Below, in pieces: positions 31,077-60,604 of a DNA stretch of 64,000 bases. The stretch is from Mesaphorura yosii. Its lineage: Eukaryota; Arthropoda; Collembola; Poduromorpha; Tullbergiidae. The notes below the pieces were generated by a model. That model saw only the letters and a list, made by a program, of their open reading frames with translations, was not told the DNA's origin and searched no databases. How positions within the stretch are numbered: the stretch's first letter is position 1; every line of letters starts with the position of its first letter. The stretch spans positions 1 through 64,000 of the forward strand of contig WIXG01000119.1 of NCBI GenBank assembly GCA_009869945.1, in the 5' to 3' direction. A program made the translations under genes and the position numbers.

Positions 31077-33563
31077 TTAAAAGTACTTGGCCACTGTGTA
31101 TTCCAGCACTTGAATCCGATCTCGGAGTTCTCCAAACAAGTTGTGCAGTTCCACCTTGAAGTTTTGGTAATCCGCGGCGACTTCCGCAAATTCCATGAGC
31201 ATCCTAGTTGCAGCTCTGTTGAAGTTTGCCTCAGTGCCAGCTGTAAGTAAACTCATTGAACAACTCAATTCTTGCTTTGTAAATTTATATTCGTACCGGC
31301 AGAGGTAGTCTTCTTCTTCTCGGAAATGATTCTCAGAACATAATCAGCTTGAAAATTTGGATCCTCGCAATAAGGAATAATACAGTAAGTTCCAGCTGGA
31401 AGCCTGTACCGAAAAACAATCTCCCTCTTTGATTCTCCGTTGTCAGTTTGTTTGCCAATTAATGGCAAATTGCGAAAGTATGCTGGTGTAAATGGTCCCG
31501 GATTGCTTTCAGGATTTTGGATCTGAGCAAAGAAAGACTCGCTTCCACAAAACTCTTCAGCCCATAAAAAGTAAAATCATTGCTTGCGCTTACCCGGAAC
31601 ACATAACATCCAAACTCTGGAACTGGTTTGTTGCGCTTTTCGCAAAGACTTGACAATGGGATGCTACTATTCATCAGTGCAATCAGCATAAAGCACGGCA
31701 ACTTTTCCTCTTCAGGACTTTGCTCCGGTTTATCTGAATAATGTTCCACCTTCACCAAATATTGCGATCTGCGGTCGAACCTCTCTAAAAACGAAAACGA
31801 ACGTTCATGTAATTCAAGTACGTTGAACTGTCACAATACAACAATGCACACCTTTGGTAAATGACCCCATCTTCATTTGGAAGTTTATTCTGTACCAGTT
31901 TTCAGAGTCAGGATCCTCGTCAAGACTGTGTGGACTCAGCGAACAAAGCTGAAGTTTGACAAAATACTTCAAAAAGTCGGAGCTTTCCATCCAAAATTCG
32001 CCGTCGTTTTCAAATTTGAGGTCAAAATTCTTTCTGTCCACCTCCGTCAAAGCGTCCCATTCCTTCGATCTAAATGGAACCGCATGATTAAGATTATGAC
32101 TTGAGTTAACCTGAGACGACCCTCGTGTTTCTCACCTATCTGACCACGCGCCATTCCATTCGATATTTCCACCCCACGGGTTTCTCACACGAAACAGTCG
32201 CACCGATTTACCATTCAATTGAAATTCTTTTAGACCTGTGATTGAGAAAGCGTGATCTGCAACCAATCCAACTTCTTCTATGTCCTCAGCTTCGCCAGTT
32301 CCGGCAGCAATGATTGAATTCCTCTGTTTGGACCACATAAGAATATCGAATAAATCTTCAGGAGCTTTGCCCGGTGTCAAATCAAATTCTTCTGAAATTC
32401 CTCCAGTGAAATCCTCCATTGCTTCCATTGGCTCTCCAGATTCAATGTTATCATACGATCCGTACAGCCTGCAGCAGGAGTATTCAACTACAGGAACAGA
32501 AATGATAAGATGGTGACTGCAATGAACTCACTTTGCGTAAGCCTTTTCTACCAGGGCCACCCAAAACAGAAAAGTGTCGCTCGTATATCTGGCGAATATA
32601 AGAGTATGTTTGTTCTTCTTTTCGTTCCAAATGCATGGAAGACGGTCGTCTATTATGATGTTCATCAAATGTTAACCAGAAAATCGCATGATGTACTTAA
32701 CAAATGCATTTCAGATTACCTACTGTAACATCAATCCAGTATCCTCGATTCCAAAATCTAAGACGTAAAAGGGAGCATCATCAAAAGTTCAAATGACAGG
32801 AACCTTCATTCTTCATACGAACCTAAAATGAAATGCGCCGCAGTACTTTTCCTCGTCGAAAGTGTTATCAAGCGGACATAGAATTTCAGCCAACTGGGGA
32901 ACCAAGCTCGCATTGGCCAAAGAAGCCAAGAACCAACAATCTCCTGAAAATTGCAAGTCCAAATAAAAAAAACAATGTTTGAGAGTGACATTGTGTCTGA
33001 ATCAACTAGCACGCCTGCCTCAGAATGGTCAGATTCGACACTATTTTCGGAAATGATGTCATCCTCCGTAAACCGTAGTAATAAACCAACTTACCGAGAT
33101 AGCCTTGCTTCACATCAAACCGATTCAAGATCCCACCAACGCCGCTTTTGCCCAGTCCCCTGAAGCGGGCTTTGCCTACATCTCCAAGAATTTCCTGGTA
33201 ATCCAATACCACTCCGTTTTACTTTCGCATTTACAGTTGATTAACTTGAGGAAACAGTTCACCTGTGGCCGCAGCCAAACTACTTTGTCAAGGTCGACTT
33301 TTCCTTCTTGAATCGCTCCAGTCATTCCAATGGATTCCTTCGCAGGAGGAAATTCGATGTCCTCGAAGAGCTTCTTCGTTTGCAGGCATCGTGTCTTGAT
33401 ATCGTCAAACGTGTGCGGATACTTGATGAAGCGCTGTGCATGTCCAGACTCCTTCTCTCCAAACTACCGTTCAATCCTCAAATTATAGCGCAAATTAACC
33501 TGATCCATCAAATTCAGATGTTTTTACCAAATAGATTGTTTTCAGTCCGAATTTGTAGGGCAT
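31077..33563 (-). CDS. Calpain-type cysteine protease without a penta-EF-hand domain
   Basis: Predicted 581-residue cytosolic, calcium-regulated protease. Eleven minus-strand exons, in order of translation: 33563-33528, 33463-33263, 33194-33095, 32943-32823, 32757-32720, 32649-32532, 32468-32136, 32069-31852, 31784-31594, 31522-31297, 31240-31077. All splice joints keep frame. The protease core reads RFDVKQGYLGDCWFLAS (catalytic Cys about 115), IDVTVDDRLP, MEDFTGG, DHAFSITG (His about 277) and RNPWGGNIEWNGAWSD (Asn about 301). A C2-like/domain III region follows (about 330-527; QYLVKVEH, FRYRLPAGTYCIIP, ADYVLRIISEKK). The penta-EF-hand domain of classical calpains is absent. The last exon instead gives a 54-residue helical, charged tail ending in a clean stop. 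The intact triad argues for an active enzyme. Start MPYKFG is the first ATG before the calpain N-terminal region. Confidence 0.88.
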
Positions 33564-42365: not shown

Positions 42366-43943
42366 ATGGTAAGGATTTCCTCAACCAATTGTCGGTAGAC
42401 AGCAGTTGCCTGATTGTTCGTTTTCTCAGGATAACTCATACGAAGAGGAGCCCAAAATCACACTTTTTCCCACACGACTCCGTGAGTTTGAGGAGAAGAA
42501 TAATTTGGTGTTTCAGCATTTGCTCTCTGCAAAGAACATGCGAAGAAACAGTGACATTTCTAGCTTGAACTTTGGAGATCAGTACACAAGAAGGAAATCA
42601 TGCACGGAGGTTACGAAACGAATTACTTGCACGTTGGCGCAGAGTCCCAACATTCTCTGACAACATAACCTAATTTCCCACTTGATTTATTTGTTTTAGG
42701 TGGACGTGATGGACTACGATGAAGAGAAATTCGACGGTAAGTTGAAAGATTTCGCAAACTCTTCTGCAGAATTTAAAAGGAAAAGGTCATACACAAACCG
42801 CAAGTTCCATACACACAAAGCGTCATCATCGCATATGACAGGACACATGCCAGGAATTTTCATTCATTTCTCTTGTTGAGATACAAAAGTAGAAGCTACC
42901 GTTCGTCTTCCTTGTACGCAAGGAGAAACTTTTGTTTATGATTATAATCTGTGTTGGCTGTCATCGCGTTCATTATCTCTTCACCAGCCGCAGCCTCGCA
43001 GCAAAGCTTAACTTATTTTCCTCCTTAGCGTACATATTTTCATAGTTTTTGCAATGCATTCGGGCATCTGGAAATCACTCGTGCGTTCTCAACAGAATAA
43101 TATTTGGGCTTGAGTTCCTGTGCTGATTTTAATTAATGATCAATGCTATACATCAATTAATACTTACGCTCATGATTTTTGTTGTTTTCTAGTCATGAGC
43201 AACGTATTCAGAAGAAACTCGATAGTCACAACGGACAAGCGAACTGGATGCATGCAAGTGCTTCAAACGAAGCTCATCCCTCTGATCTTCAAGAGAATGG
43301 GTCAAGATTACGACCAGAAGCAACTGGAACGATACATCAAATCAAACGACCCAAGAGGTATGATTCCCATGCTTGCTTCTTATTTACGAACCTCATACAT
43401 CATTGCTGTTTACATATGCACTTGCTCTGAATTTGGTGTCAATGTTTAAAGATCTGTTGACGAATGCGTGGTTGAATAGACGAAACCGGCTTGCACTTTT
43501 CTAGTGATGCGTGTTCTTGCTAGCCTGTTAATCACTCATTTCATTTCTTTTGGCTTTCGACAGTTCTGCAGAGCAATGTATGGTTTCTCACTACAAATTT
43601 TCTGTTCGTCTGCTTACCAGACCTTAACCCGAAAAAAATTCAAAGAGATAAAAGCATTTTTGAACCAAAATCAAGTGCATTTTTTGGATCTTTTGTGTTC
43701 GTCAATGCCAAAAACCAGAGAAGCTCAAAAGCAATGACAAAGATGCTGTTTGTTATTTCAGGTCTTGGAGTTGTCGACTTCGATGGGTATCAAAGGATAT
43801 TTATCCATTTCGTGAGGAACCCACATGCCGTCGAAAAGGCAAGGGCAGAAGAATTCAGGTTCGCCAACTTGATCAATGAATACAGAAATGATTCTGAAAA
43901 CTCGGAGAACTCTTCTTCGCCGGACCTGTCAGACTCCGAATAA
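42366..43943 (+). CDS. Troponin-C N-lobe-like small protein 1 (long, acidic tail)
   Basis: Predicted 128 residues. Exons 42366-42368 (ATG only), 42700-42736, 43193-43357, 43762-43943. The main body follows the N-lobe of arthropod troponin C: helix VMSNVFRRNS, degenerate loop, then KLIPLIFKRMGQDYDQKQLERYI, a second loop NDPRGLGVVDFDG and FQRIF/VRNPHAVEKARAEEF. The second loop has Asp at position 1 but Arg at 3 and Gly at 12, where calcium-binding EF-hands carry Glu, so calcium binding is probably lost. In place of the LLTPEDF-type end of its sisters it has a serine/acidic tail (SENSENSSSPDLSDSE). Introns 2 and 3 are both phase 1, as in the sisters. Poly(A) signals lie at 44570 and 44585. It is the most diverged copy. 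Function unknown; a partner of the muscle thin filament is one speculative idea. Confidence 0.75.
42430..42660 (+). CDS. Possible alternative terminal exon of gene 1 (77-residue protein)
   Basis: Inside the first intron of the preceding gene, a good acceptor (TTTTCTCAG) opens a frame that continues exactly from the ATG-only exon 42366-42368 and runs 76 codons to a stop. The product would be rich in Arg, Glu and Ser, with a segment FEEKNNLVFQHLLSAKN that recalls the F-x-F-K-H-L-L end of the sister proteins. It has no start codon of its own, so it would depend on the shared first exon. It could be a true second isoform, an eroded terminal exon, or chance. No transcript evidence was available. 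Confidence 0.35.
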   Translation, partial: DNSYEEEPKITLFPTRLREFEEKNNLVFQHLLSAKNMRRNSDISSLNFGDQYTRRKSCTEVTKRITCTLAQSPNIL

Positions 43944-44569
43944 ATCCGGAAGCAAGTGCGAATCTCTTTCATTTGTACTTTATATTCATTAAGAATCTGC
44001 GCTTTACTTTAGAAGTAGATAAAAGATCGTTAAGCAAACTCAATTATTATTTGATTCTCGTAGCTGTAGGAGTAGAATGGAACGAAATGTAATTGCAAAT
44101 CAGAACTTTACGGCGACACCAGGAAAGCAATTATACGTGAATAGTATAGAATCTCATGTTTATTTTGATTTCTAGACAGCGATGCACAATTGTACCTTGA
44201 TTTAAAGATGAGATATTGCATTGTCTGCAATATTAGACATTAGAATTAGTCACGCGTACCTATTCTCATATCCTAAGTAGATTACAAGTAGGACATGTTA
44301 GATTAGAAGTCCAACACAAAATTATTTTGTTGGATTGCGGCGTCAACGGTCAAGTCAACCATTCTTGTAAGAAAGATTGTACCTAAACCTAATTAGTATA
44401 AAAATTGTGTGTACTCAAGCTAAATTAGTATTAGAAGCAATCCAAGCAATTATTTTCTGAAGAAATATTCTCTGTACTAACGGCTTGAAATTCGAGATTG
44501 GCTCGTTCGGACTAAAGATTTGGTTACCGTTTGTTTGAATCAAAAGGTCCTGGCACAGAAATACGATTG

Positions 44570-44590
44570 AATAAACAACCAGTTAATAAA
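44570..44590 (+). terminator. Two AATAAA poly(A) signals of troponin-C-like gene 1
   Basis: AATAAA at 44570-44575 and again at 44585-44590. They imply a 3' UTR of about 0.63 kb, longer than in the sister genes. Confidence 0.6.
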
Positions 44591-46829
44591 ACCTGAATAT
44601 TACTGAACAAAGGACTCTAACCCTGAGGCACGTGGACGACGAAAGTGTGAAACTGATTTTCTTTGCCAAAATCATCATGTGTCATAATGTCTAGGCCTCC
44701 TCGGTTTTATTACTGTACTCCCTCAGATTACGACATGCGGATGACAATTCTGAGCTGGCATGCACATTGCATGAATCGTGCCACACACACTTTTAAAGGC
44801 AATATTTTCTCGTGTCGTTGACTCGTCTGAATTGTGGTGATTCTATCAAACGACAACTCAACTGCGGAACAATAAAAAATTTACAATTCGGTCTCATTCT
44901 TTCTTAACGCAAAAATAATTGATAATTTGAGTTTAATGGATTTACGGAAAGCGCAAATCGGAACAAGTTAGTGTCACAGTTGCGTTTTGGAACATCGGTG
45001 AATTAGACGACGCGGAAAGTGAGCTGAGTGAAATTCAGTTGAGTTTGCCAAATTTAAGACGTCATAAAAATTATAAAATCAGTCATGCTTGCCTAATGAT
45101 GTTCTTTCTAAAACGCGTAAAACAAGAAAGGTCGTATTCAAAATCGTTAACCGATTTTACTCCTCAAAGCGAAGGTTTGCGGTTGCAGTTGCAGAACATG
45201 GAACAAATTCTGCCAGGCAGTCACGAGGGCTCGATATGACACGTGTGCAATGTGCAAGTCTGAGATCCGAAATAAAGCTTAAATTAATTGGCACACACTC
45301 ATGTGGGTAGCGAATTAGACAATGTCTTGGACTGTTTTATTTACTTGCTCAGGTCGTGTCAACATTCTTTCACATTCCGTGCTTGGCATCCACTCTTCAT
45401 ATGAACTATGAAATGGGCGAATGAATAAATCTTGGCTTCGTCGTCAACATTGAACTCTAAATCTCATCAGATTGAGACAAGATAAAAGCTTTTTGATGTG
45501 CCCGAAACTTCTTTGGAACAAATAATTACATAAGAGTGCATTCTATCGCATCCGGATGTTTCTGGTTTTGTGTTGTAACTGCGTTATTATGCTGTACTTT
45601 AATCTTGTGTATACCTTCGTGCTACAAAAGTAGGATCATGTCGAGTCCATTTCGGTCTAGTTACTGCTAGTTGCTACTAGCAAAGCTTGAAAACGGCGAA
45701 AGTTCTTTACACAAGAAAGTAATTCATTCAGTCATGTGGCACAGTTGGCTACCGGACAAGAAATCTCTAATTGAATCAAGATCACTTTCTGGTAGTACCT
45801 AATTGACCTATTGTGTAGTACGCAAAATGTTGTCGTTAACCTAGTAATCTCTTGTCTCTTGATTTATGTGATCTAGAAACAAAGCAGCATGCAGTAATAA
45901 AATCTCACGACGCATTACATCATAACAATTAAGATAATGCGACCTACGACAGCATAACATTTATTGCGCGGCGCGCTGTGCCTTACAAATTGTAAACTAG
46001 TTCATGAACAGAGGGCTCACATTGAAAACAGATAAAAAAAGCCATCGGTGAAGAAATAAAGTAGGCGTTTGAACGAAACTATTTCATTTCGTGTTCTTGT
46101 ACTCGTAATAAGAACAAATTGTTGCTACTCTCCGCCAGATTTATAGCGTGCAGTTCCGAAACGTAATAATTGATTAGTGAGACGCGACAGCGGGAATGTA
46201 GGCTAATATCCCACATGCAAACGCTAAAGACATCTTCTTGAGTATCCGCAACATATTTGCCATTTCAACTCCAGGAACTACTTCGGAATAGCAACAATTC
46301 TGACCCAAAATGTGCTCACATACCTTTGCTTGGCTAGAACTTTCTTCACGACAAATGGCTTGTTTTGCTCATTTTATCATGTCTGCTCAATTCTAAATTT
46401 CAAACACTCGGAATAAATAATACCTTGCCATTACCTAGAAATGTCTATTTAATTTCTCGGTGGTATTGCCAGCGAGAGAGACTGCTCGCACCATTTCGTC
46501 GGCCATTACCGTCAGTCACTCATCTGTTTCTTTAATTTTTCGCATGCCATTTTGATAAAACGACTTCATGTATTATGCGGACGGATCGCAAGAGATTCCA
46601 TGTTAACCCATAGTCAAAACATGAAAAGTATGAAGTCGAATTCCCTTTGGACATTTGTTCCTGTCAAACTGCTTCCGTCTATCGAATTAGCAAGCACGAT
46701 GAACTCCTCTTCATAGAGATTCATATGCTGAATCTAAATAAATTAGCCCCAGCCTCTTGATACCGGGTCATGAAAGAGAAATTGAGGTCAAAGGTTGTCA
46801 ATCATTAACGTGTTAATCTGCTTCACCAG

Positions 46830-46845
46830 CCCAGTATATACTGGG
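46830..46845. repeat. 16-base perfect palindrome
   Basis: CCCAGTATATACTGGG equals its own reverse complement. It is followed by two nearby copies of AGCTATTTAG (about 46852 and 46869). Could be a dimeric factor site; no function is shown. Confidence 0.6.
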
Positions 46846-48604
46846 ATTAATCAGCTATTTAGTGACAAGCTATTTAGCCTCCAAATAGCGGTGAGGAGGT
46901 TCAATTATGCGTGAAATGAAATAGAAGTCACTGGCTTTTTGCATAATTCGCAATCAAAGCGGGTCGTCCAAACAGATCGATGGCAGTTGATGCGGGTTTA
47001 CCCTTTGTTACTTGTGCGTTGACTTCAAAGTTGGCAAGCTGAAAGCTGAAAACATAAATAGTAGCATCAACTCCATGTCTGGTTTGCTTTCCTTATCAGT
47101 TTGGAATTAGAAACGCGATTTCACCAAATACGACAGCAATAGCTTGGATCAGCGATACTTAAGTATGACTGCCACAGAGCTATCTGGCTGCAGAAACTCA
47201 TTCTAACTGATCTCGCCGCTGTTCTATTCCTACTCGAATAAAGTATGGCTCCTTGCCATCTTATGCCACAGAAATGCACTTGTTCAACTGCTAGGGCAAA
47301 AAATTTCTAGAACCACTGCTTGAGCGTGCTGGTGTCTATCTTCCACCAAACTCTGACTCTCGGATTCTCTATTGTGGCTTCACTGGAATTGATTGAAATT
47401 GGAGAAATGAAGTGGAGTCACAAATGACCAGTATCAGATTCTAATTCTTGAATGTGAAACAAAACATCCACGAATTTAAACATACATAACACTCGAATTA
47501 ATGGCTTTGGCTTTGACACAACTTTTGTTAGTCGTGGTGTGAGCAAGCAGAGGTAGTTTAATGAGAAAGCAATTGGCAAATTGAGAGCATCAATCCAAAG
47601 GTGTTGCATACAATACAATCTTATGAATCGAGTAAAGCGTCTATGTATTTCTGCCTGCATTAACACGCAGAATTTCAATATCAACTTCACTAAGCTAACT
47701 CCGTAGTTCTGAACTTATTACTAGTTCTATTTTTATCCTAATCAAGCGGTCTTTGCGAGGACGATCTCAATGAAGTCAGCGAAAGGATAGGTGAAAAGAA
47801 CGTGGGAGTTCTGCAATGAGTCACGCGAATCAACTCACTCACTCATTCTTATTTCTCGAACAGAGTTTTGAATTCTCCCATTCATAATTCGCTGATCGTT
47901 GATCAGCTACATTCTGATAACATGATTTGCACTGTGTCAAATGAAAAGTCGTTTAATAGCTTGATTTCTATTTTATATTAGAGTTTTTGCACACACAATC
48001 TCAATACTTCGATCGGGACGTTTCGGATTGGAGTATAGAACGTAAACTCAGTTCTTGTTTGAGTGAGTGTTGTGCGCAATTAATTGCTTCTTCGTAGTAA
48101 TAATGCATATTTCATTCACAAAACGTCGGCAGAATACTTGAAATCACTCTGGCATAGGGAATATTAGAAGCATACAGAGTATCACTCTACCACTTTCATT
48201 TGATGTAGGCCTAGCACTGAGAATGCAGTCGTACATGACAAGGTCAGGTGTGTCATTAATGATTTCATTTTTAGAAATCTGGCACAACATAGTACGCGCG
48301 CTCATATTCCTTCCCAACACTTTCTGCGCAGCAAATTCTTCAAAATTTTCCAGTAAACAAGTCGTGAGATAGGTCAAGACAAGATATAAACATAAACACC
48401 ATTTCGCTGGTTACATAACGTTTGTTTTGGTCCTGGCTTGCCCGACTGACGCCCGGAAGAAAATACGGCGTAAAAATCGAGCCTGCTTACTTTCGGTTTT
48501 ATTCAAGGAAGACTGTTGGCAACTTCACCTTTTCAGCAAGTCGTACGCGGTGTTACTGTGTACTTTCTTTCTTTGAAATCAAGAGCATCGTTAAATGCCA
48601 TGCA

Positions 48605-48641
48605 TATATAAAGACACTGGTTCAGCGAGAATTTATCAGTC
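48605..48641 (+). promoter_or_regulatory. TATA box and TCAGTC initiator of troponin-C-like gene 2
   Basis: TATATAAAG at 48605-48613 and TCAGTC at 48636-48641; the A of the initiator is 33 bases from the first T of the box. This is a textbook arthropod core promoter and points to strong, regulated expression. Confidence 0.8.
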
Positions 48642-48754
48642 TTCGTCAGTATCAAGAAAAGAGCAACACACAAGCACATATCGCCGATTAAAGAGATTCA
48701 TTTCTAAACCAAACGTAGCCAACAATAAATCATCGCGTACTTTTCGAGCACAAA

Positions 48755-49247
48755 ATGGCTGAAAAGGCTGACAAGAAAAACAGTAAGTAAGCTGTGATAA
48801 CTGTTGCAGGTTCAACTTATTACGATTACTAATTGTAGTGTTTGTGTGTATTGTTTCTTGAATTTTTGCAGTGGTGCGAAATGCTTTCCGTCGTTCATCC
48901 TCTGCAGAGGAAGACGGAAAGATACTGATGGTTGAAGTGGACATGGTGCCCACGATTCTGAACCGCATGGGACAAAAAGTGGACGAGAAGAAGTTGATGC
49001 ATTACATTGACAAACATATCGACACAGAGCGTAAGTCATTTTCGAATTCATTAGTCAAGGTGTACACAGCTGATTTCTCATTCGTTCCGATTACGTCCTT
49101 TCCGTAGACACTGGGCATCTGGACTACAATAAATTCACAAAAGTCTGTGAAAAGTTTCTCACTGACGCTGCCCAGTTGGACAAGATCAAGGGAGATGACT
49201 TTCTGTTCAAGCATTTGCTGACTCGGGAAGACTTCACCAACCCGTGA
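48755..49247 (+). CDS. Troponin-C N-lobe-like small protein 2
   Basis: Predicted 108 residues. Exons 48755-48782, 48872-49030, 49108-49247, both introns phase 1. After a charged start (MAEKADKKN) come VRNAFRRSSSAEEDGK (first helix and loop), VEVDMVPTILNRMGQKVDEK (second helix/linker), HYIDKHIDTEHTGHLDYNKF (second EF-hand) and a closing GDDFLFKHLLTREDFTNP. The middle part aligns well by eye with MVGTILRLLGHQLDQETLDE of arthropod troponin C, but the C-terminal calcium lobe is missing. The second loop keeps D at 1, T at 5, G at 6 and D at 9 but has Lys at 12. Its closest sister is the next gene, with about two thirds of residues alike by eye. The ATG here is not split from the coding exon. Confidence 0.85.
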
Positions 49248-49406
49248 ACACAGCGCAACACACTGATTTACTGATTTCTGTATCTTATGTATGATTCACT
49301 TAGACGAAATCCTGACTTTATGTAAGTTTGGAATTGTTATCAATTGCTGTTTACAGAAGTACCATTTGTCTTATGGATTTCACTTCGAATCTGGATTAAA
49401 TGTGTG

Positions 49407-49412
49407 AATAAA
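49407..49412 (+). terminator. Poly(A) signal of troponin-C-like gene 2
   Basis: AATAAA 160 bases after the stop codon. Confidence 0.75.
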
Positions 49413-49995
49413 CTTATTTTGTCATTTGTTGGGAATTGAATTTCGAGTTTTATCGAATCGGGAAGCATGTACAATTTTTTCGGGAATACGTATTTTCTTC
49501 CTCTCTTTAGGGTTCTTTGTCAATGCACATGCATAGGTGCAAGTAGTCCATCAGAGCACTTGGGTGGGTTAATTGTCATCTGCGTACATAGATTTTGTGC
49601 TAAATTGATACGCTATTTAACTGAACAAGAAACAACACCACTTGGCAGCGGTTCAAACTTGGCTCAACGTTTAAGGTCGCAGGCTTTCAGTTTCAGGCCC
49701 GGCTCACGTTTACAAAACAGTGTAAACAAAGAAAGACTATAAGACCATGCAGACGTGATCGAAGTCTCGCGTCTATTCGAACATACATGTAGAATTTTCA
49801 AAGCAAAAATAATTTCGGGCATACCACACAAATTGCGCAATTCTGGAAGATGAATGAATGAATGATGAAGTTCGACGTGTATGACACAAATTGATCTTAT
49901 GTTTGCTTCGGAGAAAGCTTTGGCAAACCTCATCTTTGTAGCAGCGTACGTGCCTTCTCGCACCTACACAATTGCGAACAACTGTTGCATGAGGT
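49413..49995. other. Spacer between troponin-C-like genes 2 and 3
   Basis: A 91-codon frame at 49467-49742 has no domain and no upstream ATG-type support. The only functional-looking element is the promoter at the right end. Confidence 0.5.
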
Positions 49996-50033
49996 TATAA
50001 AAGAGCGACTAAACTGGTTAAATATTATCAGTC
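49996..50033 (+). promoter_or_regulatory. TATA box and TCAGTC initiator of troponin-C-like gene 3
   Basis: TATAAAAG at 49996-50003 and TCAGTC at 50028-50033, with spacing nearly identical to gene 2. The word ATTTATCAGTC of gene 2 and ATTATCAGTCAAG here suggest the promoters were duplicated with the genes. Confidence 0.8.
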
Positions 50034-50158
50034 AAGCAAACTTCGTGGAGCATTAACAAAGGAAGCTAAGAAGCTAACTTAACGCCTAGTCAAATTCAAT
50101 CCATTCTCGAAGTCAAATAAACACTTTTCATTCAACGCTTCAGGAAGAAAAGGAAGAA

Positions 50159-50632
50159 ATGGCAACTGATAGGAAAACCAGTAATTATCAAGAAATTCAA
50201 AGCCTCTCCACTATGAAATCAAGAATCTACTATTGAGTTAATTTGTAATATTTTTCGGTTTCAGTTGTGCGAAATGCGTTCCGGCGCTCATCGTCCACCG
50301 AGCATGACAAGCACGACAAGGTGCTAATGGTTGAAGTAAACATGATGCCGACAATTCTGAATCGAATGGGACAAAAGGTGGATGAAAAGAGACTCATGCA
50401 GTTTATTGAAGGGATCAACACCGAGCGTAAGTCTAATAAAAATTGTCACACTGTGGTACCAACTGCAAAGCATATGATGGTTTTTGTAACAGATTCTGGC
50501 TACTTGGACTTCGACAAGTTCACACGAGTTTGTGACAAGTTTCTCACGAATCCTGCAATGCTGGAGAAAGTAAAAGGAGACGACTTTAGCTTTAAGCATT
50601 TGCTGACTCCCGAGGACTTTATTAATCCGTGA
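50159..50632 (+). CDS. Troponin-C N-lobe-like small protein 3
   Basis: Predicted 107 residues. Exons 50159-50180, 50265-50426, 50493-50632, both introns phase 1. Sequence order: MATDRKT, VRNAFRRSSSTEHDKHDK, VEVNMMPTILNRMGQKVDEK, INTEHSGYLDFDKF, then KGDDFSFKHLLTPEDFINP at the C-terminus. Position 1 of the second EF-loop is Asn and position 12 is Lys, so a canonical calcium site is not expected. Nearest relative is gene 2, only 1 kb upstream, which suggests a recent tandem duplication. The first loop is two to three residues longer than in gene 2 (extra His/Asp/Lys). No signal peptide or membrane segment, so a cytosolic protein is expected. Function unknown. Confidence 0.85.
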
Positions 50633-50758
50633 AGGACATCATGAAATTGGTTATTTTTTCGTAACTCAACTCTGGATAGTAGAATTGTTATTGCTTTGCA
50701 AATGGTCACCAGGCTTTTCATTATTGCTGACTACCTGATGTTTATGTTGGAAGACGTG

Positions 50759-50764
50759 AATAAA
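50759..50764 (+). terminator. Poly(A) signal of troponin-C-like gene 3
   Basis: AATAAA 127 bases after the stop codon. Confidence 0.75.
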
Positions 50765-51001
50765 ACACTGCTTCATTATGTCAACTCCACTTGTGCGACA
50801 AGTCTCTGAAATTATTCTTGCAACAAACGCACGTGCGGCTTGGAATAAATGTTGTCATGTACCCACCAAGCTTCAGACAAACAAATTCGGGAGGAGGCCT
50901 TAGAAGTCAGCCCGGATCCACACATAGCATAACCAAGAAATGCGATAAATGGGTGTATAGCGTGTAGTTCGAACGAATTTATCCCTGCTCGACTCGCAAA
51001 A

Positions 51002-52622
51002 ATGGAGGACAAGATCAGAATAGGTAGTGGAAAGATCATTGAGAAGGCGGAAATTGAGCTTAGCGTAAGCCATTAACTCCTATTTTCCGTTCTCCAAGCG
51101 TCCAGCACCTTTCTGTTTATAATATTTAGGCGCGGAGATATTCATTCGTTCAAAGTTTTTCTGTGCCGTGTCTAATCATTGAAGAATTAAGAAAGCACAA
51201 CGATGCAATGGAAAAGATGTATGCGGAGAAATACAAGATTAAGAATGAGGACGTTCGCGCAAAGAACTATTTTAGTTTACGCATCGAAAAAATTTGGCTG
51301 AGTGCAGGAAGATTTCAAACAACCTTTGAAGATGGAGCAAGCGCCAACTGGTTAACAAGTCTATAAGTCTGAAGAAACTTCTTGATGATGAGTCAATCTT
51401 TCGCTCTACGCAGGCTCATCAAGTTTACAATTACAAAGGATGCGCAAGGAAGGGAACACTTGACAGTTTATATATGCTTGACTGGATACGCTGGCGTCGG
51501 CGCCACCACTGAAGCCACCCCAGGCCTTAATGCTCTCTACCAAGTGTCGATTCTTGATTCCGCTGGAAGCCAAGTATATCAGAAAAGTAAGCCATACAAA
51601 GAGAAGTGTGCAATGATTGTTGATGTTGCATTGTTGTTTATGTGTCAGGTAGTGCAATTCGTCGTTTTAGCTTTCAAAGCACGCCGAGTTGGGGCTGGCA
51701 ATACTACATCCCCGTACACAAATTGGGACGGGCACACGAGCACATTTCGTTTCGAGCCAGAATGTGGACGATGAAAGATGAAGGGCAAAATGATGTTCCT
51801 GATGTACGTGTGCATTTGATTGCCCACTGCCCTCTTATTTTTCAGTCTGTCAATTGATAACAATCTTTGCCCTCTTTGCAGCAGGGCATTACCGTAATCA
51901 GTGCTGGTGGAGACTCAAATGAGGCTACTGTCACTACCGGTGCCTGGTTTACAGATGATAACTGGGATTTGATCATCGAGTGTACCCAGGCCTCATTTCG
52001 AGCTCATCGAGCAATTCTCGCAAGTAACTCGTCTAATAATTCTGCAATGTACTTATTAATCTGAATTCTGATTTTTAATGTAATATCCATAGCGGCTTCT
52101 CCAGTACTTGCCACCATGACCGAATCCCCGAGGCTCCAGGAAGTCCACCAAATGAACAGAAAGAGATACAAGATCAGCATGACCAACTCTGATACTGATA
52201 CAGCCATAGTCGAAAAGATCCTCGAGTTTTGCTATACACGGAATACGGTCGTATTTGAAGATACTTCGCAATGCGCCAAATTATGCGAGATTGGTTTCAA
52301 TTGGCAAATGAAGGAGCTGACGAAAGAAGCGTTTCTGCAGTTATCAAAGCCGGATAGATTGGATCTGGTGAATTTCCCCTTCATCTTTCTGAGATCGGAG
52401 TACGTTCGCGATCAGCCTGACGCACTTCGGAATGTGGAAGAATTTATTGTAAAGTAAGCGCGTAATTTTGTTGATGATCACCTGGTGCTGTGCTGGGTTG
52501 GAACTCTTTGCTTTCATTTCTTCCGTAGAAATCATACTGAACTCAAAAAACTAAACGAGTTTCCAGAATTGATGAGGCGCGACGGAATTGCTCAAATTTA
52601 CGCGTCAATCCTCTTTAAATAA
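51002..52622 (+). CDS. MATH-BTB domain protein (SPOP-like substrate adaptor)
   Basis: Predicted 402 residues. Exons 51002-51064, 51130-51350, 51414-51586, 51649-51803, 51882-52023, 52093-52453, 52529-52622, frame kept throughout. A MATH/TRAF-like region (about 60-185) shows YFSLRIEKIWLSAGRFQTTF, NWLIKFTITKDAQGREHLTV and SWGWQYYIPVHKLG. A BTB/POZ region (about 220-330) shows NWDLIIECTQASFRAHRAIL, SPVLATM and FCYTRNTVVFED. Short C-terminal helices follow. Proteins of this layout bind substrates through MATH and the cullin-3 ubiquitin ligase through BTB; that role is by family. The short N-terminal part before MATH is unusual for SPOP itself. Exon 5 has a NAGNAG acceptor (GCAGCAG), so one residue may vary. 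Poly(A) signal is probably ATTAAA at 52672. It separates two groups of troponin-C-like genes together with ARMC3. Confidence 0.85.
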
Positions 52623-52671
52623 CACAAAAGTTTGGTGTAAACAATGAGCGCGTAAACTTACCCACATGAAA

Positions 52672-52677
52672 ATTAAA
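52672..52677 (+). terminator. Variant poly(A) signal ATTAAA of the MATH-BTB gene
   Basis: ATTAAA 50 bases after the stop; no AATAAA was seen nearby. Confidence 0.45.
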
Positions 52678-53526
52678 CCTGGATTAGTTCTTTCTCTTGC
52701 TACTTGGAAAACTACGCAGTTGATCTTGTCTGGTGTTATTTGTATACGAATAGTTATGACAGGCTACATAAATGATTGTTGTTTACATAATCTCATCAGT
52801 TACTTCCTTTGCATACTCTGCAGCTGCAATCTGCAGTGGTAGCTGCGCAGCTAACGTCTTCCTGGTCTAACTTTGGCAGTAAGCCAAAATTTAATGCATG
52901 CACACGGCACATCGGTTGACTTCTCCGGTTTGAGTCATTACTCTGAAGAGAGTTCGAAAGAGCTGTAAACACAAAGTCTATTTTTAGTAACAGTTAGTTA
53001 ACATTTGTCTGTCCTCAGTGCAAACCAGCTTGAGTCACACAAGCCGTCAGAAATCTTTGATTCCTTTGCAACCATGATCGATTTTTCAAATTGGAATCAA
53101 AGATTCGTTGCTTATGATTTCGATCATCTAGAAATGCTTCTCAACCACAAAGACTCATTGCGCAATACTGTTGAATGCTGTTACTTGGCTTGGCTTTTCG
53201 AAGAAAATGGATTTCATTCGGTTCGACAAGACAGGTCTAGCAAATCACTTCCATAGCACTTTCTAAGACAACGCGGACATCTAAGCGGATTGATTGAAGG
53301 ACCTTGGATCTATTGATGCAAAGTTTTTCGACGAAATTGTAATATACAATATACAATTTACTAGCGTCCATTAACTTTGTAATGATGCTTGTGTGAAAAT
53401 TAAAAGCTTCAGTGTCAGTTTCAACACGCGAAAGAATTCATGGATCCTGCCTGTGATGTCAAATTTCAATGCACTTGAATTTAAGATACCAGCGTGATTA
53501 GCTAAGAATTCAAAGATTTCGTTAAA
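52678..53526. other. Spacer between the MATH-BTB gene and ARMC3
   Basis: An open stretch at about 53017-53256 begins after a possible splice acceptor (GTCCTCAG) and encodes a non-repetitive sequence, but it has no ATG start, no recognisable domain and no partner exon. No TATA box was identified for ARMC3. Confidence 0.4.
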
Positions 53527-56243
53527 ATGGAGGTGAAGAACACTAATAGTGAAGATAGTACGGAGACGAAGTGTCCCGTCCCAAACTCGATCAAGGATCG
53601 CGCCGCAATCTTATCAAAAGCTGCTTCGGACAAGAAATACGGATTCGCTCAACTCAAGCCGCCAAAACGGGGATTGAAGGAGGAATGTACCAAAACATTT
53701 GGACCATGCCATGTTGACGCTATGCAAGCCAAAACGGCCATTCTGCTACTCAAAACTGAAGAAATCCACGTGCGTTGATCAAAATTCCGAACCAAAGCTG
53801 CGATCTAGAAATTATTTCTACTTACTTATTCCAGATTGTAATTGAGTCGCTGAACTCATTGCAGAAGTTTGTAAGGAGATGCCAGGAGAATAAAGAGATT
53901 TTTATCCAACTTGAAGGACTTCAAGCAGCCCATCTTTTGATACGAAGTCCAAATCGAGTTGCTCAGCGTCTGGCCCTGAAGCTGATTGCAATGACGTCGA
54001 GCATTCATCAGGCCACACTGCTGTGCCGTGACCTGGACATGGTAGCTGATGCGGCTGAACTTCTACAGGCATCCAAGGACGACGTCGTCATTGAGTATTG
54101 CACTCTCATTCTCTCTAACTGCGCAACTTTGTACACCGGAAGACTGCAAATCATACAGCACGGAGCGATTCCACTCATGCTGCATTTCATCGAGACAAAC
54201 AATGACCCCGACATTCAAAGGAATGCGGCCGAGTGTATTTGGAGAGTGCTTGAGGAACCGCTTAATGTTGAACTAATCAGCACTGAAGAGGCAATTCGAC
54301 CGATTATCAGTCTCTGCGAAAACGAATATCCAGCAGTGCAAATCATGGCTTATTCGATTCTGGAAAAATTCAGCATATTGGCGGAAGGAGTTGCCATTTT
54401 AGAACGACTGAAAATGATTCCGAATCTCGCATATAAGGTCGGGAACTTGGAACTGGGCGACCTTCATCGTGTGATGCTGAAGATTCTCGTAAATATGGCG
54501 ACTTCGTATGAATCTTGCAAGCAGATGGCTGGACTCTTGGCCCACTTTCTGGAATGGATGGATGGTTCCAAGGATCTGCAGGCGCAAATTCACGCCATCA
54601 CGCTTCTTGGAAAAATAGCATCAGATCCAATCTTAGCACGTTCAATCGTGGAAGCCGGAATTACTCAGAAGATTATTGCAGTGCTTTCGACTTATGCAAA
54701 TGTCGAGATCCGTGAAGCTTGCTGCTCCGCACTGGCGCAGCTAGCCACTGCCGATCACCGTGCAAAAAATATTCTTATCAGTGTACGTACATTTCGCATT
54801 TATTAGTCATATGGATTTTTTGATTGGTTGTTGCGTTTTGAAGGCAATTCGGCCACTGCTTGTGCTCTTGAATGGCCCACAAATTACAACACGGGGCACC
54901 GAAATCGGCTTGAAGTTGCTCGCAATTGTTATTGAAGCAGGCACGATTTCATGCTCAGCTTTTGTTGAAGAGGACGGCCTCAAGTTTCTGAAGAAGATCC
55001 TGGACAATTTCCAGAAGCATTCCGATCAAGCATTGTTTTCTTGCTTGACATGCCTCAGCCTCATCGTGCGGCAGCACGAGCTGCGACCAAGACTGGTTCA
55101 CGAAGGTTTTGTGGGCAGCATCCTTAACTGCTTCAAGAAATACAGCCCACCGCTGCTGGCTTTGGCAGGAAATTCCATGTGCGGACTCTTGTGTGAAGCA
55201 GAAGGTCGTGAGCAGTTCGTGACACAAGAAGGGCACAAGTTTGTGTCTGAACTGTTGTCAAATGCTGAAGAAGTTCCCTTCGCGACGGCTGTGGTTCCAC
55301 TGATTCATATGGTTGGCTGCTACCCAAACGTCGCGAAAGAATTTATTGACAGAGGAGTACTGGAATCGATCTGGAAACGTCAGGATCTGATTGGTTGCAA
55401 CGGTCCTTTTCGGACTGCCTACGAACAGCTAATCTCAACGCACTTGCCCGCAAAGTTTGCCATCACAGGACACATCGAAGCATTCGAAAGGCTGGCCAAC
55501 GGCTTCTACGACATTGGTCATTTAAAGAAAGGAGAGAGGTATCGTTCGATAATGCAAATGAGTTATGAAGACCGGGACCCGGAAAGACGCGTCATTTATT
55601 TGAATCTGAGAACAAATGTGGAGCCTGAAGTTTTGGAGTTAAACCCCAGCCTTCAAATTATGATTGAACAGGAACAAACAGCGAACACATGCATTGAACA
55701 AATTCAGAAGGCAATTGACATGAGATTGGTGAGAAGCGAGAAGGAGGTGGTTGGACTCATTGCCATAATTGTTGCCGAGAAGTACGGTGGCCGGTTGAAC
55801 AAATGGAAGCTCAGTGCGCAATCTGAAGAATTGGAATTCGTAGATTTGCAAAATAAGTTTGAATCTGTCGTGATACCTGTTACAATGCAAGTTTATTTTA
55901 ACTATCTGCCCATTGCCGACGTTTGCTAAAACTCATGCCTTTCGTACACAGGTTAAATGTAGGAGCACATCGCCCACGAGCAATTCTCTTTAAAGCGATT
56001 TGTGACCATTTTGGCATTCCTTGCACGTTGGATCGTGGCGGGTACAAAAAGCATTGGAATGTGGTTCTGTTGAACGTAAATCGATTGGAAGATGACTACT
56101 GCCCTTGCATTGAGATCGGTGACAACTGGAAAAATCTCGTCTTTATCGAGAAGCTTCGTCGTTTTGTGGTGGATTTGATCTACCAGCCCGGCTCACTGTT
56201 CCCCCTTCATTCATACGAAGCCAACGCGTATTGTTTCTATTAG
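53527..56243 (+). CDS. ARMC3: Armadillo repeat-containing protein 3 orthologue
   Basis: Predicted 841 residues (human ARMC3 is about 870). Exons 53527-53769, 53835-54782, 54844-55886, 55952-56243. After a lysine-rich N-terminal part of about 65 residues the protein is a long run of armadillo repeats (about 80-580; for example IQHGAIPLMLHFIETNNDPD and NVEIREACCSALAQLATAD). A linker with HIEAFERLANGFYDIGHLKK, matching the NDGFYDYG segment of ARMC3, and a C-terminal EDR1-like domain follow (HRPRAILFKAICDHFGIPC, LDRGGYKKHWNVVLL, VVDLIYQPGSLFPLHSYEA). This order is specific to ARMC3. In vertebrates the gene is linked to sperm flagella and cilia; the same role here is inference. The last intron uses a GC donor. 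Poly(A) signal at 56289. Confidence 0.92.
55887..55951 (+). other. GC-AG intron in ARMC3
   Basis: Donor AT|GCAAGT, acceptor ACACAG. No GT donor nearby gives the right frame and length. With the GC donor the joined sequence (VIPVTM then LNVGAHRPRA) matches the spacing of the EDR1-like domain in relatives residue for residue. Confidence 0.7.
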
Positions 56244-56288
56244 CGTCCTTTCACCCCGTCGATGCACAATAGATTTACATCTTTAATG

Positions 56289-56294
56289 AATAAA
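56289..56294 (+). terminator. Poly(A) signal of ARMC3
   Basis: AATAAA 45 bases after the stop codon. Confidence 0.75.
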
Positions 56295-57008
56295 CAGCCT
56301 TCCTGCCAACCATCTGCTATTAGCGGCCAGCGCAATGAGGTTGTTTATCTCTTGCCATATGCCAATCAGTGGCAACGACATGCAATGCGTAGGACGCGAG
56401 CGTGAGAAGATCAAACCTTGCGTTGCAGTTGCAATCACGCACTGACCAAATCAAATGTCAGCAATTTTTGAAGTTTGAAAAGAACTCAATTCGGTTTAAC
56501 ATTAGTCTAGCCAAGATGCACTTTCGGCAATGAATGCGACACTCTTGTTAAATAAACAAGACGTCTTGTTTTTCGTCCGTCTATATAAAAATATCCCGTA
56601 TCGATTTGTCTGTGTGAAAAATGTGCTCTGACATCGACATCTGGAAGAAGAATGAACTCATAAACGTCTAAGTATAAACCCTTTCGAAGTAGATGCAGAT
56701 CTCTGGCTTCAAGTGGGAAAGTCCCAGAGCTGCGTCTTTGTCTCGTCTTTGTGTTTACTATCTAGAGTACAACTCTTCGGAGAGTAATGAAATGAACTGT
56801 GCATAGTGACCTCACACAGAATTGGAGGTGCCATGCTCTGCAAAAGCAGAAGATGATGAACTTTTGCGAATTTTTGACAGGAATATGCAAAAACACGATG
56901 AATAATCTTGCCATTTGCCAAATCTGAGAACACTCGCTTGAGATGTAAATGATTTGTTAGGTTGTCGGTCTTTCCAGGTCGGATGATGGCGATAATGGCG
57001 CAGAGCAA
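56295..57008. other. Spacer between ARMC3 and troponin-C-like gene 4
   Basis: Two overlapping minus-strand frames of 114 and 75 codons (56709-57053) run through the promoter of the next gene and show no domain; taken as chance. Nothing else was recognised. Confidence 0.5.
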
Positions 57009-57045
57009 TATAAAAGCACGCCGATGAAGCAAACGACAATTAGTT
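57009..57045 (+). promoter_or_regulatory. TATA box and TTAGTT initiator of troponin-C-like gene 4
   Basis: TATAAAAG at 57009-57016 and TTAGTT at 57040-57045, again 33 bases from box to initiator A. The ATG follows after a leader of about 90 bases. Confidence 0.7.
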
Positions 57046-57129
57046 TGCAACAAATTGCATCCGAGTGAAGAAGATAACCAATCAATACCAACCGTTCACT
57101 TTTGAGGTCCAACAAAGCAGCGCAACGAA

Positions 57130-57724
57130 ATGGTAAGACCGACTACGTTGAATATTGAGCACGATTCTTATACATTGGGCAATTCGGCACGCTCGTCATC
57201 AATCATTTCACTTATTGATCTATTTTTATCCAGGCAACTGAGGCCGAGAAACAAGCACGTACGTCTTTAATCCATTTCTACAATACATTTGTCCTTTAGT
57301 ATGTGAGTTTAGTGTTGGTTGCATTGTTCTAATTATTGTAGTCATTCAAACCACGTTCAGGAGGGCCTCCCTCACTGACCAAGGCGTCGAGAAGATTGAA
57401 ACATCTCGAATTCCTGTGATCTTGGGTCAAATTGGACAGCCTTACGATCAAAAGAAGCTGAACTTGGCAATCAGCAAGTTGGATCCGAGAGGTACGAATT
57501 AAACAAAGCTAATGAATGCACGGATGGGAACATGTATTTACGAATGCATGAAAAATCCAAATTTTGCTTTTCTTCGTTTTGCAGGAACTGGCTACTTGAG
57601 CCGAGATGGATATTACCAACTGTGCAAGGAGTTTGTGAAGCATCCGGCAGCACTTGCAAAATTCAAGGGAGATGAGTTTTCATTCAAGCATTTGATTGGA
57701 CGTGGTGACTTTGCACTTCCGTAA
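57130..57724 (+). CDS. Troponin-C N-lobe-like small protein 4
   Basis: Predicted 105 residues. Exons 57130-57132 (ATG only), 57234-57258, 57342-57491, 57585-57724; the last two introns are phase 1 at the same places as in the sisters. Order: MATEAEKQA, LIQTTFRRASLTDQGVEKIE, SRIPVILGQIGQPYDQKKLN, SKLDPRGTGYLSRDGYYQLC, and a C-terminal KGDEFSFKHLIGRGDFALP. The second loop carries Asp 1 but Arg 3 and Gly 12, so calcium binding is unlikely. The DPRG/DPQ-type loop and the SLTD-GVEKIE segment group it with gene 5 and, more loosely, gene 1, apart from genes 2 and 3. Function unknown; no signal peptide or membrane segment. Confidence 0.85.
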
Positions 57725-57812
57725 TTTCGATGGGCATACTCCAGTGTACGGAGAATAACCATTTGTACTTTTATGTTAGATAATTCTATCAATTGGATCC
57801 CGAAAAGAACAG

Positions 57813-57818
57813 AATAAA
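57813..57818 (+). terminator. Poly(A) signal of troponin-C-like gene 4
   Basis: AATAAA 88 bases after the stop; a second CAATAAAT lies about ten bases on. Confidence 0.7.
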
Positions 57819-58077
57819 ATATGAACCAATAAATCGGTGGTACGGAATTTTGAACATCGCATGCTAAAATTATCGACCGATCTCTTCCATGCTTTTGAAC
57901 TAAAAATACTCTTGTTTCTCCCGAATGCATTCATGTCAGGATTTACCAGGGCGTTAGCGGCTCAGCTCGGCGTTATTTGCGTCATATTGACGACTTACAA
58001 CATCTGCATAAACGCACATAGGAAAGATCTGCATGCAAGCACAGGGTTTTTGATCCCGGCCACTGCCACCGGAAGAG

Positions 58078-58116
58078 CTAAAAATAGATTGGTTCGAATC
58101 TTCATCTCTGTCACTG
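58078..58116 (+). promoter_or_regulatory. Weak TATA-like promoter of troponin-C-like gene 5
   Basis: CTAAAAATAG at 58078-58087 with GTCACTGC about 33 bases downstream. It is a weaker match than in the sister genes but sits at the expected distance before the ATG-only exon. Confidence 0.4.
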
Positions 58117-58209
58117 CATCCATTCGTTAGATCAACTTATCTTTGCGCGCATGCACTTGCTGAAGTTGCTGCAGTCAAGAGCAGTAAAGGCAACAAACTC
58201 CACGCAAAC

Positions 58210-58774
58210 ATGGTAAGAAAATCATCTTTAATTTTTGCTTGGTCACATTGAAAATTAGTTTGAGATCTTCTTAAATTATTTGATTGCAGGCCACTGAAAC
58301 TGAAAAGCAAAAACGTAAGATAAGTTAAGCGAAATTCTGAGCCAAGAAGCAAAGGAACTTAACTTCGACGAAATGATTTGTAAACAGTAATTGAAAAAAG
58401 CTTCCGGCGTGCTTCACTCACTGACAATGGCGTTGAGAAAATTGAATCCAGCCGAATTCCTGGACTTCTAGGACAAATGGGGCAGCCATATGACCAACAG
58501 AAATTAAAGCAATGGATCAAAAAACTTGATCCACAGGGTAAGATTTTTTTGAATGGACAGTTTACTATATAATAAATAATTGTATATAATTTAGGACACA
58601 GATCATTTTGACTATTCATTTACTTTTGACGCAGAGAGCGGCTATTTGGATCAGGAGAGCTACAACAAACTGTGCAAAGAATTTGTCAAAGATCCGGCAG
58701 CCATTGCGAAGTTTGAGGGAGACGAATTCACTTTCAAGCACTTGATTCGCTCGTCTGATTTCGCCAAGCCTTAA
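58210..58774 (+). CDS. Troponin-C N-lobe-like small protein 5
   Basis: Predicted 105 residues. Exons 58210-58212 (ATG only), 58290-58314, 58388-58537, 58635-58774, with the same intron places and phases as gene 4. Order: MATETEKQK, LIEKSFRRASLTDNGVEKIE, SRIPGLLGQMGQPYDQQKLK, KKLDPQESGYLDQESYNKLC, and a C-terminal EGDEFTFKHLIRSSDFAKP. The second EF-loop has Asp 1, Ser 5, Gly 6 and Asp 9 but Gln 3 and Ser 12, so a canonical site is not expected. It lies under 500 bases after gene 4 and is its nearest relative, which points to a tandem duplication. Confidence 0.85.
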
Positions 58775-59758: not shown

Positions 59759-60604
59759 ATGGGCGAGTACAAATTGTATCATTTTAACACGAGATTTCTG
59801 GCCGAACCAATTCGGTTTATCTTTGCGTACTGCGACGTTCCTTTCGAAGATAACCGGATTTCCATTGATGACTGGCGAGAAATGAAAGACAGTAAGTTAG
59901 AAGCTCTAGAAGTCCACCAGAGATTCTGACTTATAGTCTTTGTAGAGGTACCTTGGAACCAACTTCCATATTTGGAGTTGCCAGACGGTCGAGTGCTTGG
60001 CCAGTCAGGCACGATCGTTGAGTATCTAGCCAAAAAGTTCGACCTGGTTGGCGATGACGATTGGGGTAAGAATACAGTAGCACAATACAGCAAACGTAAT
60101 GATATGTAGCTTCATTCTTACAGATAAGGCAAAATGCAAGGAAATTTCGGATTGTCTCCGGGACATGCGTCAAGGTGAGCAAGGACGCATATGGATTCGG
60201 TGTCGGTCCTAGACAAGTGTTTCTATCGAAGTACATTTGAATATGTTTTCTCGTTCACAGAATGGCGGAAAGTGTTCTTCCAGAAAAACCGCGACAGGAA
60301 GATCGCCGCAGCGAAGTATTTCATAGACGAAGTGGCTCCAAAGTACTTCACGGAGTTCACACAAATGATGAAAGATTCCGGAGGGAAATATCTGGTCTGC
60401 GACCGTGTCACCTATGCTGATATCCTGTTTGCCCACAACGCAGCATTTTTTGAGGAGACTGTTAAAGGAGACATGTGGAGTAAGTTCCCCGAGTTGCAAA
60501 AGCTGAAGGAGAGAATTCATGACATTCCAAGAATCAAGCAGTACATTGAAGTTAGAACGAAGACGGACACTCAAATGCTACTTCTCATTCAAAGCTCCTT
60601 CTAA
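59759..60604 (+). CDS. Sigma-class-like glutathione S-transferase with altered catalytic site
   Basis: Predicted 215 residues. Exons 59759-59891, 59946-60065, 60124-60174, 60261-60604, all phase 1 joints. The N-terminal thioredoxin-like domain aligns with prostaglandin-D-synthase/sigma GSTs: MGEYKLYHFNTRFLAEPIRF, EDNRISIDDW, NQLPYLELPDG (cis-Pro 52) and QSGTIVEYLA (Gln64-Ser65 glutathione contact). The C-terminal helical domain contains CDRVTYADILFAHN, the usual ADI/ADF core. Relatives read KLTYFN with the catalytic Tyr at position 8; here it is KLYHFN, so position 8 is His and a Tyr sits at 7. The RGRAE segment is RFLAE. Catalysis by glutathione may be changed or lost. It ends about 15 residues longer than usual sigma GSTs. 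Confidence 0.88.

Follow-up and report, generated by a model that had tools for sequence, protein, structure and literature searches.

Analyses of a 64-kb stretch of the Mesaphorura yosii genome indicated that five small genes, designated g1 to g5, are almost certainly paralogues of arthropod-type troponin C (TnC) that have been reduced to the N-lobe. Overall, the explanation toward which we lean is that these genes form a local, N-lobe-only TnC family of small EF-hand proteins that are insensitive to calcium. A preliminary description of this DNA had likened the five proteins to half a troponin C. That likeness now stands on firmer ground, as descent from TnC was indicated by sequence, by intron positions and phases, and by phylogenetic trees.

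Gene models and layout of the array

The stretch that was analyzed, referred to here as the window, comprised bases 1–64000 of contig C119 (202.6 kb), and the genome that was searched comprised 93 Mb in 1127 contigs. The location (42366–58774) and protein sizes (105–128 aa) previously given for the five genes proved exact: 42366 is the first base of the g1 ATG and 58774 is the last base of the g5 stop codon. The GT-AG models of all five genes were in frame, each with a single stop that was terminal. The models, and two segments to which the text returns, were as follows.

42366–43943, + strand: g1, 128 aa, in-frame GT-AG model with exons 42366–42368, 42700–42736, 43193–43357 and 43762–43943
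48755–49247, + strand: g2, 108 aa, GT-AG model with exons 48755–48782, 48872–49030 and 49108–49247
50159–50632, + strand: g3, 107 aa, GT-AG model with exons 50159–50180, 50265–50426 and 50493–50632
50330–50425, + strand: segment of g3, VEVNMMPTILNRMGQKVDEKRLMQFIEGINTE, with helix B, the GQ turn, helix C and the start of loop II; core of the TnC match
57130–57724, + strand: g4, 105 aa, GT-AG model with exons 57130–57132, 57234–57258, 57342–57491 and 57585–57724
58210–58774, + strand: g5, 105 aa, GT-AG model with exons 58210–58212, 58290–58314, 58388–58537 and 58635–58774
58635–58774, + strand: last exon of g5, with loop II from position 4, then helix D, the linker, the tail GDEFTFKHLIRSSDFAKP and the stop

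Identity over aligned codons was 70% for both g2/g3 and g4/g5, and 29–39% for the remaining eight pairs. The most divergent of the five was g1, whose tail is acidic and serine-rich. The genes had been described as a tandem family, and they are indeed five + strand paralogues in a local array. However, a BTB/POZ gene and an Arm-repeat gene interrupt the series between g3 and g4, and the array is thus a dispersed one.

Several neighboring genes were also identified in the window. The BTB/POZ gene (~51000–52620) had a BTB match with an E of 2.5e-4 and by eye was of the TD-POZ type. The Arm-repeat gene (53760–55929) matched Arm with an E of 9.6e-11, and also had an ARMC3-type peptidase-like match that was sub-threshold (E 9.4e-4, 19.5 bits versus 27). 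Just 3' of g5 is a glutathione S-transferase gene (~59759–60604; GST_C_3, E 1.7e-21), and an exon of a calpain-family protease is located on the - strand at 32132–32527 (Peptidase_C2, E 5.4e-31).

Sequence homology to the troponin C N-lobe

A profile search had been proposed as a check on the resemblance of the five proteins to EF-hand lobes, and it was such lobes that they matched best. Profile-profile comparison (hhalign) of g1–g5 with the four TnCs of the same genome produced a match of 97.8% (E 8.5e-13) over 87 columns that covered the N-lobe and linker. In the PDB, 372 distinct sequences were matched at an E of up to 1, the best of which was Lethocerus F1 TnC (2jnf, E 1.1e-10). The best 60 of these 372 matches beyond the Lethocerus protein were mostly calmodulins, plus four skeletal TnC entries.

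Pairwise scores pointed to one of the genome's TnCs in particular, TnC11. Against its N-lobe, g1–g5 scored 95–114, compared with maxima of 47–55 over 500 shuffles per sequence (z 13–20), indicating that the likeness was not due to chance. TnC11 was the top-scoring TnC for four of the five proteins, the exception being g2, which scored 103 with TnC521 and 95 with TnC11. When the five-protein profile was run against the TnC loci, the best match was an exon of TnC11 (E 2.4e-7). The ILxxxGQxxDxxxL segment, which the preliminary description had matched to arthropod TnC, was found in all five proteins as the block [IL][LF]xx[MI]GQxxDxxxL (e.g., IFKRMGQDYDQKQL in g1 and LLGQMGQPYDQQKL in g5).

None of the five proteins passed the Pfam EF-hand gathering cut-off (best E 0.00086, 20.1 bits versus 37); four had sub-threshold matches only, and for g3 no EF-hand match was listed in Pfam. 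The N-lobe of TnC11 alone passed its cut-off (43.4 bits versus 30), which indicates that g1–g5 have diverged well beyond TnC11.

Phylogenetic trees

In an N-lobe tree, g1–g5 formed one clade with support of 100/99. The join of g1–g5 with TnC11, apart from the other sequences, was supported at 92/94 (10 rows), 91/90 (12 rows) and 89/81 (11 rows, calmodulin omitted), where the 12-row and 11-row trees took in a Drosophila row. These values are below the 95/80 at which the tree tool awards a star, and the alignment was short and its branches long. Based on these sequence comparisons, we consider the link to TnC11 as the nearest relative of g1–g5 to be good but not final, and a gene like TnC11 to be their most likely ancestor. 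Placement of Lethocerus F1 TnC as a direct sister was unsupported, as the F1 branch was long, shifted position and did not group with TnC11.

Intron positions and the origin of the half gene

A phase-1 intron splitting the fifth codon before the helix A Phe was present in all five genes and all four TnC genes, and missing from the calmodulin of the same genome (0/1; one gene, modelled in part only). A second phase-1 intron, at position 4 of loop II, was found in all five genes, in three of the four TnC genes and in calmodulin (1/1). An intron directly after the ATG occurs in g1, g4 and g5, in all four TnC genes and in calmodulin (1/1). The preliminary description had taken shared phase-1 introns as a sign of common descent and local duplication; the post-ATG intron, for its part, is missing from g2 and g3. 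As the positions and phases are those of TnC, and include one that is missing from calmodulin, they indicate that g1–g5 descend from TnC. One intron of TnC521 (G000:C521:17500-22000) apparently has a GC donor (AAGAAG then GCATGT) and not GT.

These data also bear on whether the family could have arisen from calmodulin or another EF-hand protein and not from TnC. Calmodulins make up most of the best 60 of the 372 PDB matches, and both the post-ATG intron and the loop II intron are common to calmodulin. However, g1–g5 scored only 45–64 with calmodulin, the trees join them with TnC11, and the intron before helix A was missing from the one calmodulin modelled. With introns, scores and tree all against it, we ruled out this origin as highly improbable.

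The manner in which the genes were shortened is suggested by their last exon. In TnC genes, exon 4 spans loop II to loop III (117–120 nt in the three that keep the loop II intron) and normally leads on to two further exons. In g2–g5 the last exon, including the stop, is 140 nt, and in g1 it is 182 nt. The [DE]FxF motif of g2–g5 aligns with EAFRLYD at the start of TnC helix E, after which the frame continues a few codons beyond the position of the TnC donor. The last exon of g1–g5 resembles a TnC exon 4 whose splice donor has been read through, and the simplest history for such a tail is donor loss with read-through to a stop. In this history, the donor that closes exon 4 would have been lost from an ancestral TnC copy; the reading frame would then have continued into the old intron as far as a stop, and the truncated N-lobe product would have been retained and duplicated.

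Absence of a C-lobe

All five proteins end before loop III, and the two-lobe, four-EF-hand layout of TnC is absent. The preliminary description had stated that there was no calcium-binding C-lobe, and the gene models and window searches agree with it. As the models were predicted from DNA alone, and TnC exon 4 would usually be followed by two more exons, we considered whether the mature mRNAs might add a C-lobe or other domain. However, the last exon of each of the five genes contains the in-frame stop, and g4 and g5 are only 485 bp apart. No C-lobe exon turned up in the 64-kb window by tblastn with two C-lobe exon queries, whose best matches (E 1.7–1.8) were EF-hand 2 of g1–g5 themselves. The first AATAAA was 89–627 bp past the stop in all five genes, which is weak evidence given a background of 74 per 64 kb. 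We consider it very unlikely that the models are incomplete, and the candidate of hidden C-lobe exons in the window was rejected.

Calcium-binding loops and the FRRxS motif

In EF-hand loops, the glutamate at position 12 clamps calcium. Position 12 of loop II was G, K, K, G and S in g1 to g5, respectively; TnC11 has A there, and E is found in calmodulin and the remaining three TnCs. In g5, for example, loop II is DPQESGYLDQES, read across the intron, with no acidic residue at position 12. An intact loop II calcium site was found in none of the five proteins, and loop I, when the alignment was inspected visually, had more residues than that of TnC and did not follow the consensus register. Judging from these residues, calcium sensing has very likely been lost in g1–g5. 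In addition, FRRxS closes helix A in all five proteins, at a site occupied in TnC by FxxF and the beginning of loop I; this motif was found in none of the four TnCs.

Relative to TnC521, TnC154 and TnC82, g1–g5 share the N-lobe sequence, the helix B-GQ-helix C block, and intron positions and phases, and differ in having no C-lobe, no loop II glutamate, a loop I insertion with FRRxS, and a new tail. TnC11 and Lethocerus F1 TnC resemble g1–g5 in their loop II, which in both has no glutamate at position 12, as in g1–g5, and begins with DP, as in g1, g4 and g5; both differ from g1–g5 in having kept the C-lobe. TnC11 itself (G000:C11:501985-503319, - strand) is a full-length TnC with a dead loop II, with A at position 12, and Lethocerus F1 TnC, with S at that position, has a dead loop II like that of TnC11. 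In F1-type TnC, site IV is active, whereas g1–g5 share the inactive loop II without having a site IV. A study of Lethocerus reports calcium binding by F1TnC at EF-hand 4 alone, with an N-lobe that does not engage TnH/TnI (PMC4965559). On that account, an N-lobe that was already calcium-dead and unengaged could be cut loose without prior loss of function.

The C-terminal tail

A [DE]FxFKHL[IL] ending in place of the C-lobe had been proposed for g2–g5, and it was present in all four; the corresponding residues in g1 are EFRFANLI. The tail is not wholly new, though, since its first residues align with the beginning of TnC helix E, after which it consists of new sequence beyond the former exon end. 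Its full consensus in g2–g5 is G-D-[DE]-F-x-F-K-H-L-[IL]-x-x-x-D-F-x-x-P. This is the best-conserved part of these four proteins, with 10 of 18 positions invariant versus 19 of 87 in the remainder (Fisher p 0.007; the limits of the regions were set after the alignment had been inspected).

Sequence constraint and promoters

For the g2–g3 pair, dN was 0.17–0.19 and dS 1.4–2.0 across three routines (0.17 and 1.82 in the main one), and for g4–g5 dN was 0.22 with dS saturated. As dS was saturated for most pairs, the dN/dS comparison is a rough one. Low dN at near-saturated dS speaks against decay and argues for g1–g5 being real genes under protein-sequence constraint.

A TATA box was found within 300 bp of the ATG in four of the five genes (0.16 expected per promoter), located 221 bp before the ATG in g1, 150 bp in g2, 163 bp in g3 and 121 bp in g4; no TATA match was present within 300 bp before the ATG of g5. 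A strict MEF2-type site (CTAWWWWTAG), one of two in the 64 kb, is located at 58078, 132 bp before the g5 ATG, and strict sites were also found in two of the four full TnC genes, at -228 and -247. With a site in one of the five promoters versus ~0.13 expected over five 800-bp promoters, the result was not significant, and MEF2 was rejected as a muscle signature of the family.

That the C-lobe and the calcium site of loop II are both gone, and that the family branches are long relative to those of TnC, could suggest that the genes are truncated duplicates decaying without function. Contrary to this, all five frames are intact with their splice sites, the two close pairs have the low dN given above, the tail motif is conserved, and four of the genes have TATA boxes. 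We regard decay as hardly credible, and dN/dS together with the intact frames led us to rule out pseudogenes.

Predicted structure

The AlphaFold input was g3 in which the second intron was translated as part of loop II, together with contiguous exon pieces. The models with the translated intron had mean pLDDT values of 57.1 and 58.7, with ~70–80 for helices B, C and D and with helix A unformed. Foldseek produced no match below an E of 1 for either of these intron-carrying models. The first model had 36 matches (E 1.7–9.5), of which 27 were titled calmodulin, calmodulin-based sensor, EF-hand light chain or a relative, three more presumably contain a protein of one of these kinds, and six were unrelated. 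The second model had seven matches, one of them calmodulin. MAFFT had misplaced the ends in the first structure alignment, and the second was therefore made after trimming the g1 tail and, in the first-half pieces, the loop II ends. The models speak neither for nor against an EF-hand pair fold, and the case for the identity of g1–g5 is made by homology.

Distribution of the family

Searches of the genome with g2, g5 and g1 identified no further copies: matches were found only on C119, within the array, with the exception of one off-array match (E 0.85), which was a TnC11 exon. In the next 20 kb of C119 the family profile found nothing better than an E of 7. Against 30 EF-hand loci other than those of TnC, the profile matched one calmodulin-like exon with an E of 0.007, and E was 0.18 or more among the other matches listed at those loci. 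No relatives were confirmed in collections of viral and prokaryote contigs. NCBIfam gave one irrelevant match (E 0.1, in one of the five), and there were no matches in the Rfam and tRNA searches. Searches with a tardigrade CAHS fragment and with insect odorant receptors, both run without a positive control, likewise yielded no match. The preliminary description had known of no family with this layout, and this claim was not contradicted by the open-access literature, where no half-TnC family was found by titles and abstract starts among the matches listed.

Possible functions

Our best guess as to mechanism, placed ahead of a troponin decoy, is a tentative one made by analogy: that g1–g5 are calcium-insensitive EF-hand adaptors. 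This guess is based on the missing loop II site, the missing anchor and the conserved new tail. Each protein would be a small cytosolic EF-hand pair, unresponsive to calcium, that would bind a partner helix either constantly or under phosphorylation control, while the [DE]FxFKHL[IL]...DF..P tail would cap the cleft of the lobe or dock to the partner. Apo light-chain and calmodulin lobes bind partner helices (IQ motifs) without calcium, and it is this calcium-independent binding by myosin light chains and apo-calmodulin that serves as our working model. Those proteins are two-lobed, however, and the likeness is one of proposed mode.

A role on the thin filament appears unlikely, although there are data in its favor. 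Here, the anchorless N-lobe would bind or block the switch region of TnI and tune contraction as a free decoy. Descent from TnC, as seen in the introns and profile match, would fit such a role, as would the strict MEF2-type site before g5 and the comparable sites in two full TnC genes. The Lethocerus study also reports that the N-lobe of F2TnC binds TnH peptides (PMC4965559). The same study describes the calcium-dead F1TnC N-lobe as not engaged with TnH/TnI, which is against a simple troponin role (PMC4965559). The MEF2 site occurs in only one of the five genes, at a frequency to be set against the chance expectation noted above.

Further, binding of TnI by TnC N-lobes normally requires opening by calcium, and loop II is dead in all five proteins. 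A more improbable idea still is that a switch once operated by calcium came to be operated by a kinase. R-R-x-S is a PKA-type consensus, and its presence at the start of loop I in all five proteins, combined with the loss of calcium binding, suggested this reading. The FRRxS motif would be phosphorylated, placing negative charge where a calcium ligand once sat and opening or closing the lobe against its own tail.

Significance of an N-lobe-only family

TnC is usually viewed as an indivisible two-lobed switch in which the C-lobe is the anchor to troponin. An N-lobe-only TnC family would be surprising to muscle and EF-hand specialists; the evolutionary route, by truncation, loss of calcium binding and local duplication, is familiar. 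Polcalcins and S100 proteins are likewise made of one EF-hand pair that is the whole protein, but they bind calcium and are not known to be products of TnC exons. A retained and expanded N-lobe-only family with no intact loop II site would show how a gene for a muscle regulator can be severed close to an exon boundary and put to new use, and g1–g5 would provide a natural experiment on what the N-lobe is capable of alone and without calcium.
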